From: a virus
DNA length: 22,525 bases
Strand: one strand, 5' to 3'
IMG/VR virus record: IMGVR_UViG_3300006920_000278
Location: 1-22,525 of that record
In this document: positions 2,758 through 19,688 of the stretch, in pieces
Position numbering within the stretch: position 1 is the stretch's first letter
Layout: every line of letters begins with the position of its first letter
The notes under the pieces: generated by a model
What the model saw: only the letters and a program-made list of their open reading frames with translations
Told to the model about the DNA's origin: nothing
The model's database searches: none
Position numbers and translations under genes: made by a program

Positions 2758-5700
2758 TTGGCTGACCAACGAATTACGCAGCTCAATGAGCTGTCCAAGG
2801 CTGGGGTTGCAGCAATAGACGTCCTGCCTATTGCGGACATTAGCGGCTCCGAGACCAAAAAGGTTACGGCAAAAAACCTTGTCGATGCTGGTCTGGACCT
2901 GATCGATGTCAGCACTATTGATCTAGACAAGCTTGATCAAAGCAGCACGACAAAGCTAGGTACGGCTTCGATTGCTGATGATGCAATCACGTATGCCAAG
3001 GTCCAGAACGTTACGGCAACTGACCGTTTGCTGGGACGTAGCACTGCAGACGCTGGTGTTATTGAGGAAATTGTTTGTACTGCAGCAGGTCGAGCATTAT
3101 TAGATGACTTAAGTGCCGCAGCTCAAAGAACAACGTTAGGTCTTGGCACAATTGCCCTGCTTGACGCTGATGGCGCAACTCTTACAAACCTGACCATCAC
3201 CAGTGGCACGATCACTGGTATTACAGACATCACCATTGCGGATGGTGGAACGGGAGCAAGTGATGCTGCCAATGCACGGGTAAACCTTGGCGTAGCAATC
3301 GGGACGGATGTCCAGGCTTATGACGCTGGGTTGCAGTCAATTTCAGGATTAACGACTGCTGCGGATCAAGGTATTTACGCGACTGCCTCTGACACGTATG
3401 CAGTTTTCTCGTTAACAGCAGCAGGTCGAGCGTTGCTTGACGATGCTGATGCTGCAGCTCAACGCGCCACATTAGGGCTTGGGACGCTAGCTACACAAAG
3501 CGGAACGTTTGCTGGAACGCATTCGGGCACAACTTCTGGCACTAACACGGGCGATCAAACGATCACGCTGACGGGAGCTGTTACTGGTAGTGGCACTGGT
3601 ACGTTTGCGACGACAATTGCCGCAGGGATTATTGGAGAGGCGAACCTTGCTCCCGATTCTGTCACTTACGACAAACTGCAAGATACAACTGCCACAGATG
3701 TACTTCTAGGTCGTGCAACTGCTGGTGCAGGGACAATTGAGCAGATTAGTTGTACTGCAGCAGGTCGCGCATTACTTGATGATGCCAACAGCGGAGCACA
3801 GAGAACAACACTTGGCCTTGGAACGTTAGCGACGCAAAGCGGCACGTTTACGGGAACACATAGTGGTACAACTTCTGGCACTAACACTGGCGACCAGACG
3901 ATTACATTAACTGGCGCGGTAACAGGAACAGGTACTGGCTCCTTTTCGACAAGTCTTTCTGCTGGAATCGTAGAAAACGCCAATATTGCATCAGACGCAG
4001 TTACTTATGAAAAGATTCAAAATACAACTAACACTGACATAATTCTTGGTCGCAGTAGCGCTAACGGCGGTTTAATTGAAGAAATTGCTTGCACAGCTGC
4101 TGGTCGAGCTTTACTTAATGATGGAACTGCAGCAGACCAACGCACCACATTAGGTCTTGGAGATTTAGCTACCTCTACTGGAACTTGGACAAACGGATCA
4201 GTTTTTAGCGGAACTAGCAGCGGAACAAATACCGGCGATCAAACAATTACTTTGAGCGGTGCTGTAACAGGCAGCGGCACTGGAGCGTTTGTAACAACGT
4301 TAGAGAATGGCATTGTTCTTGAGGCAAATCTTGGCACTAGCGCTGTAACAACAGGCAAGCTTCACGCTGATTCAGTTACCGCAGCAAAGATTGGTGATCA
4401 GGCAACCTGCATTGTTAGCAGTTCTACCCCTTCTGGGACAGGTGATTACACAGGCCAAGGTTGGTACAACACTAATACAAGCATTGCGTACCGCTGGAGC
4501 GGAGAAGCGTGGTCACAAGTTGCTGGTATCCAGTCGATAACAGTTACGGAGTCCACTCCATTCGCTGTTGTTGTTAGCAACCCAACTGCATTTACAACTG
4601 ATCTATCGCTGTCACTTGACACGCAAGTCGCAGCCAGTGTATTTGCAGGTCCAGCTACTGGAGCGGATGCCGCACCAACATTCCGTAGTCTGGTCCCAAC
4701 TGATCTGCCTGATGCAACAGCATCGGCTAAGGGCATTATCCAGCCTGGAACAGGTCTAGCAGTTACAAGTGGAACATTAGATCACAGCAATAGCGTAACT
4801 GCAGCAACAGTTAGTGGCGTTACATTTGACGCCCAAGGCCATATTACTGCAGCAACTGCTCTGCTTTATGCAGATATTCCTGATCTTGATGCAGCAAAGA
4901 TTACAACGGGCGAGTTCCTGACTGACCGTATTGCTGATAGTGCAATCACTGGAGACAAGCTTGCTGATAGTTCTGTTACTGCATTTGGCGAATCACTGCC
5001 TACTGCTGCGTTCAAGGGTCAGCTGTTTTATAACCCGCTTGAAAGAAATTTCTTTGTTTGGGACGGTAACGTTTGGCAGCCGCTTGGCATCTCGGCTGGT
5101 GCAATCATTCTTGCTGGCACTTACAACGCAACAACAAACCAAGTTGCAAGCGTAACTGGCGAGGGTGCTGCCCTAGGGATAAGTGTTGGCAATGCTTTAC
5201 CTTCTCCCAGCTCAGACAACTCAAATTATTACCTTGTTGTCTCTATTGGTGGTACGGGCACAGCGCCAGCGCCTACGGTAACTCTTGCGCCGCCTGACAT
5301 TCTTTTGTCAGACGGATCAAGCTGGATTGAAATTGATGTTTCGTCTACTTATACGGCGCAAACGGCCAATAATGTTGCATTTTCACCTGCAGCAAGCCTT
5401 GGTAGCACGAACGTACAACTAGCACTTGAAGAAGTTAGCAACGAATGCCGCGTTGCAACCAACTTGACCAGCGGAATGCTGGCTGTAGCTCGTGGTGGTA
5501 CTGGGATTGCTTCTTATGTAAAAGGCGATCTAATTGTTCCTACTGGTACGACCACGCTGGACAAGCTTGGCGTTGGGACAAATGGTTACATCCTCAGCGC
5601 TAATAGCAGCGAAACAACTGGCCTTGAGTGGATTGCTAATCAGGCTGGCACCGTCACCAGCGTCACTGGCACCGCTCCAATTCAAGTTGCAACTGGAACG

Positions 5701-17179: not shown

Positions 17180-17212
17180 CGAAAGGCTTCTCGCGCGTAT
17201 AGATGTAAAAAG

Positions 17213-17416
17213 TGTCCCTATTGGTCAAAAGCCAGTCATGCTAAAGGGTTTGCATGGGGACACCCAAGGGGGACAGCTAGAGTTGTCCCCTTTGTTCCTC
17301 AGTTAATTCAATCTCAACCGCTCCATCCATCAAAGGGGGACAGAGTGGATTGTCCCCCATGTCTTGTCCCCCTTCAGATAACGCTCCAGCACTGGGTTTA
17401 CTAGTAGAAGGGGACA
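17213..17416. repeat. Cluster of GGGGACA/TGTCCC(C) elements with two hairpins; candidate origin or regulatory site
   Basis: Eight copies of GGG(G)GACA or its complement start at 17213 (TGTCCCT), 17256, 17268, 17284, 17335, 17351, 17365 and 17410. Two pairs make perfect hairpins with eight-base loops: 17269-17275 with 17284-17290, and 17335-17342 with 17351-17358. The outer pair 17365/17410 is a third, wider inverted repeat. The primase-helicase stop codon lies in the first loop. Inside the gene the copies fall in different codon phases, so they are not a protein repeat. Confidence 0.6.
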
Positions 17417-19535
17417 GTTTCTGACCCTCTCCGCACGCGAGAACAGCTTGATAATGTTTGGAGCGAGATCCTTCTAAGACGTAAGAGACGATCAACTTAC
17501 GGTCTTCCATTCGTTGGAGCGTTTTCTTAATCGCGACAGCAGACCCAGCAACCAAAGGGTCAGCAAGTAGATCCGTTTTGGTGCGTGACTCAGGGAAAGC
17601 AGTGCGAAGGCGGCTAAGAACGCGACCTGCAACAGACGAAGGAGTGTTGTCCTCTGGATCCATTTCGGGCGTGAAGTCTTCGATATAAAAACCAAGGTCT
17701 TCGTTTTGCCCAAGCTTGAGCTTGGTGCCAGAGCGACCAGAGCGGCTTTTTTCGATAGTGATGAGCCGTTCATGCTTTTCAACCCGTTGGTCCTTCATTG
17801 GGCGGTTCTGAAGTTTGTTCTCAGGGTTGTGGGGGTTCTGAAGTGACCAAGTTTCATCTACAGCGTCACGAATAGCTGAAGTGCCTCTGAATCCTCCATT
17901 TTTGTTGGCATGGTGGATGATCAAGATTGTGGTGGCAGGAAACAGCTGACCATTGTTTTTTGTGAGCCAGTAAAGGGGGGTTGCGAACTCGGATTTGTTC
18001 TCGTCAAAAGCTGCACCGCCAGAGCAACCAATCAAGGAGTCAATGACGACAAGCTTTGGCTGATACTTTTCCATCAGCTTGATGAACTGGGCGTAACGAC
18101 GAAGCTGCCAGTCACTTCGGATGTAAGTGTCACTGTTGACTGGAAAATCAGCTTCGATCAACTGTTCTTTCAACTGCGGCAGACCTTGGTCGCCATTTAG
18201 CAAAAGAACAGGGCCTTGTTCGACTGGCACTTCAGCTCCGCGAACCTTGAATGGTTTACCGGAAGCTATATGCCCTGCAAGAGCCCAAGCTGCTGTGGAC
18301 TTACCGTCACCACCAGCGCCATAGACCAAGACGACAGAAGGATGAGGCAAGACATCAGGGATCAAGTAATCGCGCTTAGCTTCTTTCTCCATCAACTCTT
18401 CAACAGTAAGAAGTTCAACTTTTTTCTCAAAAGCGATTTGATCAACAATGAGTTTTTCAAGTGCGCTTTGATCTCTGTATCCAGCCCGTAAAGCAAGGCT
18501 GTTGAGCTTGTAGTTGACCTCAGCAGGGTTATCAAGTTCGAGTATTTGTTTGGAGCGGCGGATGACCTCTTCAAACTCAAGAGTTGCTGTGCGGAACTCT
18601 TGGACTACTTTTTCTTCGGCTGATTTGACGACCTTGGCCAAACTATCTGAAAACCTGAGTCGTTTGGGATCCTCCCTGTCCGCCAAGTGGATAAGAGTTC
18701 CGATACCTACGCCATTGCCTTTAAAGGTGTTCCAAACATCAGCGCAAGGGTTGTCGTTTTCCCATTCAGATGCGTAATCAGAATCTTCTGCTGACCACGC
18801 AGACCAAAGCATGAAGCCCATTTCATTGGGCAAAGCAGAATTAATTGCCATGCCAATCCTGACCCAGTGATCCCTGGATCCAGCTCCTTTGCAAGGTATG
18901 ACATTTAGGCAGTCACGAACGATCTCAAAGATTTCGTCTTGGGTGCGATCTGTGAAATCAGGATCACGCTTGTTGATCGCCTTGGCAGGCTGCTTCATTT
19001 CAGCAAGCAACCAATCTGGAGCGACAGGAATACTGGATAGATCACCAGAAATTGTGTACTGACCAGGCTCTGAGGTTTTGCTGCCAGGGTATTCACCAAA
19101 GATGACCCCCTGCCGCTTGGAGTTCCAAAGGATCTCATAGTCCTGATCGCCTAAGCCTCTGCCTTCAACGCTGCTCCAAAGCTCCTCAGGCACGCGGAAA
19201 AGGTATTTAGCAGCATTGCCCTTGGTTGATGTGATTGTTGGAGCGCCTTCAAGGGAGGAGCCCCAGACTTTGAGAAGTTTTTTTAAGCCAAGGTCAACGT
19301 CAAGGATGACGATGCCATTACCGCGAATGCCAGTGAAGACGCCTATGGCCTGAAGGTCTGGATTGCGCTGTATGGCAAGAGCAGCATCAGCAGCATCAAA
19401 CTTGCGATCAAAGCTTGCCTCTAGAGGGTTCTTGCCAGTAGCAGGCTTGCCAGAGGCCATTTGTGCCCCTTTACGATATATCGGTGCATACACCAATCCA
19501 GCTGGAAGTGACTGGACAAACTCAAGAAGTTTCAT
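17277..19535 (-). CDS. Primase-polymerase / RepA-like helicase fusion (752 aa)
   Basis: Start chosen at MKLLEFVQSLPAG (19535). The upstream 41 residues of the longer frame run through a hairpin and look non-coding. Residues about 1-180 are a bifunctional primase/polymerase (AEP) domain with the metal-binding VILDVD at 76-81 and a WNSKRQGVIFGEYPG strand. The usual S-x-H motif appears as AAKYLFRVP, lacking the His. Residues about 200-285 resemble a PriCT domain (DHWVRIGMAI, FMLWSAWS, VWNTFKGNGVGIGTLIHLA). Residues about 390-600 are a RecA-like hexameric helicase: Walker A GAGGDGKST at 406-414, Walker B LVVIDS ending 500, and LIIHHANKNGGFRGTSA at 538-554. A C-terminal part (640-700) looks winged-helix-like. 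It should prime and unwind phage DNA. No DNA polymerase gene is in the window. Confidence 0.9.
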   Translation of the reverse strand: MKLLEFVQSLPAGLVYAPIYRKGAQMASGKPATGKNPLEASFDRKFDAADAALAIQRNPDLQAIGVFTGIRGNGIVILDVDLGLKKLLKVWGSSLEGAPTITSTKGNAAKYLFRVPEELWSSVEGRGLGDQDYEILWNSKRQGVIFGEYPGSKTSEPGQYTISGDLSSIPVAPDWLLAEMKQPAKAINKRDPDFTDRTQDEIFEIVRDCLNVIPCKGAGSRDHWVRIGMAINSALPNEMGFMLWSAWSAEDSDYASEWENDNPCADVWNTFKGNGVGIGTLIHLADREDPKRLRFSDSLAKVVKSAEEKVVQEFRTATLEFEEVIRRSKQILELDNPAEVNYKLNSLALRAGYRDQSALEKLIVDQIAFEKKVELLTVEELMEKEAKRDYLIPDVLPHPSVVLVYGAGGDGKSTAAWALAGHIASGKPFKVRGAEVPVEQGPVLLLNGDQGLPQLKEQLIEADFPVNSDTYIRSDWQLRRYAQFIKLMEKYQPKLVVIDSLIGCSGGAAFDENKSEFATPLYWLTKNNGQLFPATTILIIHHANKNGGFRGTSAIRDAVDETWSLQNPHNPENKLQNRPMKDQRVEKHERLITIEKSRSGRSGTKLKLGQNEDLGFYIEDFTPEMDPEDNTPSSVAGRVLSRLRTAFPESRTKTDLLADPLVAGSAVAIKKTLQRMEDRKLIVSYVLEGSRSKHYQAVLACGEGQKLSPSTSKPSAGALSEGGQDMGDNPLCPPLMDGAVEIELTEEQRGQL

Positions 19536-19564
19536 GTAGAGTGACAAGTGAACAAGTAAACATT

Positions 19565-19599
19565 TCCGGTCAGCTAGCGGTAGTTGGCCGGATTTTTTT
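19565..19599 (+). terminator. Plus-strand intrinsic terminator between divergent genes
   Basis: TCCGGTCAGC (19565-19574) pairs with GTTGGCCGGA (19583-19592) as ten pairs, two of them G-U, around an eight-base loop. Seven Ts follow (19593-19599). The two G-U pairs would be A-C mismatches on the minus strand and that strand lacks a T-run after the stem, so the terminator works in the plus direction. That direction is antisense to the primase leader. Confidence 0.7.
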
Positions 19600-19612
19600 A
19601 TCTTAGCCCATA

Positions 19613-19641
19613 TTGACAAGGTGCAGCAATGTCTGTAGCTT
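19613..19641 (+). promoter_or_regulatory. Candidate sigma70-type promoter for the SSB-like gene
   Basis: A perfect -35 TTGACA (19613-19618) is followed after 17 bases by TAGCTT (19636-19641), a weak -10 match. It lies just after the plus-strand terminator and 47 bases before the GTG start of the SSB-like gene. Confidence 0.4.
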
Positions 19642-19688
19642 GTTGGAGCGTCAAGCACTGACGCGACAACCTACTAGACAACCTTCAC

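Follow-up and report, generated by a model that had tools for sequence, protein, structure and literature searches.

A dyad-symmetric GGGACA array at the 3' end of a phage primase-helicase gene as a candidate replication origin

The origins of SaPI Rep and SCCmec Cch2 lie directly downstream of the helicase gene and are recognised by the C-terminal domain of the helicase (PMC7581432); SaPI Rep and its downstream iterons were described by Ubeda et al. 2007, and Rep is thought, as that work is cited in PMC7581432, to bind as two hexamers. In the IncQ plasmid RSF1010, as summarised in PMC4234260, the oriV system comprises RepA, RepB' and RepC. The plasmid pRN1 encodes a Prim-Pol protein with a winged helix (orf904) and has an origin candidate 3' of that gene, for which specific binding was not detected (PMC4234260). 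The PLE RepA origin is an iteron origin of a phage satellite at which binding of the initiator has been demonstrated (PMC7145576).

The DNA analysed here (the window) comprises 22,525 nucleotides of a viral record, positions 1 to 22,525 of IMG/VR record IMGVR_UViG_3300006920_000278, and contains an array of short sites at the 3' end of a primase-helicase gene. In relatives of this phage the array lies across or beyond the stop codon of the putative initiator helicase gene, an arrangement resembling that of SaPI and SCCmec, and as in SaPI the repeats would be recognised by a C-terminal domain, judging from co-variation and from a modelled winged helix. The SaPI and Cch2 helicases are of the DUF927 or D5_N/Primase_Cterm type, whereas here an AAA_25 (RepA-like) helicase is fused to Prim-Pol/PriCT-2; the array also overlaps the coding end, its hexamer and geometry differ, and it occurs in tailed-phage contigs, not islands. 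A RepA-type (AAA_25) helicase, a dedicated primase and a putative repeat-binding function are shared with RSF1010, but these are combined here in one fused protein of which the candidate reader is a domain, in place of the separate iteron-binding RepC, and the short sites lie in both orientations, unlike the direct iterons of RSF1010. In common with pRN1, the locus encodes a Prim-Pol protein that ends in a predicted winged helix and has its origin candidate on the 3' side of the gene; pRN1, however, has an SF3 helicase and a continuous stem-loop of ~100 nt with no iterons, in contrast to AAA_25 and separate sites. The RepA_N initiator of PLE is unrelated to the primase-helicase, and the locus differs from a classical plasmid iteron origin in having neither direct repeats of ~20 bp nor an adjacent AT-rich unwinding region. 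An earlier note on this DNA had drawn a parallel with phage lambda, which keeps its iterons inside its initiator gene O. The parallel holds for position but not for mechanism, as the gene here encodes a Prim-Pol/AAA_25 primase-helicase and not an O-type initiator, and the SaPI origin is closer. Lambda O is not a primase-helicase, the lambda iterons lie in the middle of the gene, and DnaB is recruited through P.

All seven copies of GGGGACA in the window (22.5 kb) were found at 17256-17416, a span of 161 bp, while the expectation for the whole window was 1.9 and seven copies were reached in none of 100 shuffles. When all hexamers were compared, GGGACA was the most clustered of the window (8 in 210 bp), and its maximum across 40 dinucleotide shuffles was 3 per 210 bp. 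Other hexamers attained 7-9 per 210 bp in 6 of the 40 dinucleotide shuffles, so that the window alone is suggestive and the relatives decide. The eight GGG(G)GACA/TGTCCC(C) elements in 204 bases that had been noted earlier were confirmed, and the case proved stronger than described. Two perfect hairpins (arms 17269-17275/17284-17290 of 7 nt and arms 17335-17342/17351-17358 of 8 nt, both with a loop of 8 nt) and a wider inverted pair (17333-17342/17365-17374) were likewise found as noted. A point absent from that note is that all eight elements (17213-17416) make up one near-perfect dyad-symmetric array centred at ~17313. With the two orientations written as F and R, it reads R 45 F 14 F 15 R 52 F 15 R 13 R 43 F on the gene strand, and start-to-start distances by window coordinate are 43, 13, 15, 52, 15, 14 and 45. 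The array elements measure 6-7 bp and occur in both orientations. The primase-helicase stop codon (17277-17279) falls within the array, in a hairpin loop; three elements lie downstream of it and five in coding sequence, where, by their coordinates, they occupy two codon phases, in line with the earlier statement that in-gene copies differ in phase. A similarity search of the array DNA against annotated phages gave no match, nor did a comparison of a structural protein of the window with them.

Table 1. Positions of the array, the flanking boxes and the primase-helicase features in the window
Feature	Position	Strand	Remarks
Conserved outer box CTCGCGCGTATAGATG	17190..17205	+	Near-invariant among close relatives; upstream of small ORF
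Element 1, GGGACA	17213..17218	-	A precedes on gene strand
Element 2, GGGGACA	17256..17262	+	
Element 3, GGGGACA	17269..17275	+	
Element 4, GGGGACA	17284..17290	-	
Central spacer holding the dyad axis (~17313)	17291..17335		52 bp element-to-element
Element 5, GGGGACA	17336..17342	+	
Element 6, GGGGACA	17351..17357	-	
Element 7, GGGGACA	17365..17371	-	
Element 8, GGGGACA	17410..17416	+	
Inverted outer box CTCGCGTGCGGAGAGG	17426..17441	-	In coding sequence, so protein coding also constrains
Primase-helicase gene, 752 aa from ATG	17277..19535	-	Pfam; start aligned with relatives
C-terminal winged-helix domain (predicted), aa 634-698	17442..17636	-	AlphaFold2 on 41 sequences; PDB matches
Recognition helix (predicted), aa 666-678, ...AIKKTLQRM...	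17502..17540	-	Predicted secondary structure
K670 codon	17526..17528	-	Residue co-varying with array motif

Pfam, run on the longer ORF of 793 aa (17277-19658), identified Prim-Pol, PriCT-2 and AAA_25 domains in the primase-helicase (E 6.7e-19 for AAA_25), while a PDB sequence search with the protein returned nothing beyond a weak ATPase match. The C-terminal domain was modelled with AlphaFold2 from 41 sequences as helix 46-56, strand 61-63, helix 64-69 and helix 77-89, followed by a two-strand wing, with a pLDDT of ~84-91 per block over this helix-strand-helix-helix-strand-strand order. Its PDB matches were winged-helix regulators of the MarR/MepR and Fur-like kinds (best E ~0.02), the MepR-like matches aligning over ~63 residues at 1.6-1.9 angstrom, and residue 670 lies on helix 3 of the modelled winged helix. 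A full-length model from 9 sequences was of low confidence (mean pLDDT 41) and was therefore used for secondary structure only.

Approximately 100 relatives of the primase-helicase were obtained from two protein scans of viral contigs; in the cellular genomes searched there was one relative, in a proteobacterial MAG. Where the 3' end of the gene is intact, relatives had the array there, complete or partly degenerate, and at least six exact copies of one heptamer were present in 69 of the 84 relatives examined. The earlier note had envisaged relatives lacking the repeats while conserving the protein end; what was found was an array that persists even in relatives with a poorly conserved protein tail. 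The half-array R-45-F-13-F-15-R is seen repeatedly, as is its mirror image, in contigs with a GC content of 0.36-0.54, and a second architecture (R44 F17 R10 R24 F11 F17 R44 F) was found in contigs of GC 0.55-0.59. Its position with respect to the stop codon shifts among the relatives, and the array ranges from wholly coding in L133 (first element at -255) to mostly downstream of it in L077 (first element at -34). The centre spacing also varies among the relatives (~10, 12, 21, 32, 43, 53 and 77 bp; range ~10-78), and these lengths approximately follow the helical repeat (R=0.82, p ~0.01 by simulation), as do those of the second architecture (p ~0.02). In L063 several elements have reversed their orientation without a change of position. 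The outer boxes (Table 1), which are inverted relative to each other, were alike in 32 of 65 relatives and in 1 of 65 in the control; the box upstream of the small ORF is a possible boundary or priming site, and both boxes could be priming sites, though the second is also coding. An oriV of the RSF1010 type has two inverted single-strand initiation sites, to which this inverted pair of boxes may be compared.

Within one phage nearly all copies in the array are the same variant of the motif, and between clades all copies switch together, the variants being GGGGACA, TGGGACA, CTGGACA (L066-L069 and L083) and TGCGACA (L095 and L097). These switches were accompanied by changes at residue 670 of the protein, in the predicted recognition helix, within the sequence A-I-X-K-x-L-Q-R: GGGG and AGGG phages always have K here, TGGG phages always R and CTGG phages always H or Q, while in the TGCG phages the residue is still R and the Q of L-Q-R (Q674) has become E. 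Alignment columns 670 and 749 were the only ones to split G from T phages without error; the codons of column 749 belong to the array itself, which leaves 670 as the sole error-free column outside the tail that the array encodes. When the tree was built with the winged helix left out of the protein, the motif and residue 670 each showed seven changes, and all five independent G/T pairs agreed (p=0.0625 by sign test, the lowest value that five pairs can give). Comparison of the window with L005 placed the N-terminal part of the window's primase-helicase closest to the T-type, while its C-terminus and array are G-type, which suggests that winged helix and array were exchanged together by recombination.

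Among the functions proposed in the earlier note, the best supported is that of a phage origin or a site to which the primase-helicase binds, and these sequence comparisons make it very probable that the array is the replication origin of the phage and that the primase-helicase binds it through its C-terminal winged helix. Copies of the protein would bind the array sites through this domain and assemble as two oppositely oriented sets, one on each side of the central spacer; the AAA_25 motor would then load at the centre and open the DNA, and the Prim-Pol domain would synthesise the initial primers. One self-contained unit would thereby comprise initiator, helicase, primase and origin, comparable to RepC, RepA and RepB' of RSF1010 fused and sitting on their own origin. 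No clear AT-rich melting zone or unwinding element was found at the array, the AT content of which is 0.41-0.53. A switch in GC skew at about 17.3 kb had been suggested earlier as a check and was absent from the window, and in five relatives of 36-43 kb (L362-L373) the skew was monotone, with one sign throughout regardless of gene strand. As no switch was seen anywhere, skew neither supports nor excludes an origin at this site, and the check was uninformative. A search of the literature for this motif with a phage origin found nothing.

The strongest alternative is that the primase-helicase binds the array for copy-number control (like P4 crr), partition, packaging or autoregulation while initiation takes place elsewhere. 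Co-variation tells who reads the sites and not why, GC skew does not support an origin, and arrays of a similar kind flank terminase genes in other phages, so that the motif alone is no proof of an origin, which is defined instead by the link to the initiator protein. This alternative is nevertheless considered unlikely: the site-reading domain shares one protein with a helicase and a primase, the SaPI and SCCmec precedents show a site downstream of the gene serving as origin (PMC7581432), there is no second GGGGACA cluster in the window, and in partial listings for 17 related records each had one dense motif cluster and scattered single sites.

The suggestion in the earlier note that nearby RHH proteins bind the element did not stand. 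The array does lie just upstream of a small-ORF/RHH operon, for which it could be an operator, and RHH proteins bind short repeats; close phages of the G and T types, however, have RHH proteins of 86-94% identity, and in L074, L089-L092, L099, L103, L132, L133 and other relatives that keep the array none was found in the 2.2 kb downstream, which makes an RHH-read operator highly improbable. As candidate readers, RHH and small-ORF proteins alike were rejected, since they do not track the motif and were not found within that distance in many array-keeping relatives. It is equally improbable that the two perfect hairpins, whose pairing is preserved by the concerted changes, act in RNA as a terminator or protein-binding site at the gene end, given that element orientation flips in L063 while positions stay, spacer lengths track the DNA helical repeat, motif switches follow a DNA-binding helix and the array of L133 is wholly in coding sequence.

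Arrays at the same place as in the window were also found in annotated phages with an AAA_25 primase-helicase, in most of them with other hexamers: GTGACA in 15-16 copies in Rhizobium phages 16-3 and RHph_X2_25, GGCGGA in RHph_N65 and GGGACA in Salicola phage CGphi29. In Rhizobium phage 16-3 (L350), fifteen GTGACA sites lie in a 358-bp gap (~4830-5190) after p101, which encodes a DNA polymerase/primase, and this gap is a candidate for the origin of that model phage. The Roseobacter phages CRP-831 (L352; TATAAA) and CRP-811 (L353; CTACAA) each carry an array just 3' of a helicase RepA family gene, with nearly the same geometry and different words; in these cultured phages the motif has again changed in concert, a second natural example. 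No such array was seen in other AAA_25 phages examined, for example Caulobacter GB2A, Microcystis Mae-JY30 and Mycobacterium Rich, so the 3'-end rule is not universal; a GGGACA array was also absent from S-CBS4 (AAA-type ATPase) and BPP-1 (different helicase).

It is likely that a large class of Prim-Pol/AAA_25 phages carries a portable, self-contained replicon in which winged helix and dyad array evolve as lock and key with a readable code. In such a code K, R and H/Q at position 670 would correspond to first bases G, T and CT, and Q to E at position 674 to a G-to-C change of the third base. Origins are unknown for most phages, especially uncultivated ones; if this reading is true, the origins of uncultivated phages could be located, and their specificity predicted, from sequence. 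As a search rule for origins, the locus points to the 3' end of genes for AAA_25 primase-helicases, and it provides a natural specificity code in which one amino acid is tied to all the sites of an array. It would allow the joint change of specificity in an initiator and its many sites to be tested directly, and it offers a compact self-loading replicon for biochemistry.

A protein-blind scan of DNA for the pattern GGGACA-TGTCCC-TGTCCC returned at least 120 array loci, and clusters of at least six sites were present at 102 of the 120 loci listed, whereas a hexamer of the same composition, used as control, gave 9 of 120. Among the matches listed, a clear homologue of the window's gene was present at 30 loci and a more distant primase/helicase cluster at ~30 further loci; the four of these that were checked all had AAA_25, two with Prim-Pol. 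Other arrays were at terminase genes in isolate prophages and at O-like replication genes. The former are of a different type (R7 R64 F13 F15 R13 R16 R12 R at L107:3643-3788), adjoin the terminase small and large subunit genes in prophages and were also found in L114, L115, L118, L123, L139, L148, L154, L159, L199, L211 and L215; the L107 region is present in 59 E. coli genomes, strain HS among them, and the array is probably a packaging (cos/cosB-like) site. Lambda O-like replication genes contain GGGACA arrays in L127, L135, L144, L160, L207, L209 and L222 (the L144 protein being assigned to DUF1376 and phrog_22470), and the same word is apparently used separately inside an initiator gene. 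At L130:5777-5997 (R9 R40 F13 R11 R10 R10 R28 F11 F21 F13 R40 F9 F) and L195:7760-7980, a palindromic array of 13-14 elements comes right after the gene of a VapE-type helicase, upstream of which stands a separate Prim-Pol gene; these arrays are candidates for further origins with another helicase class.
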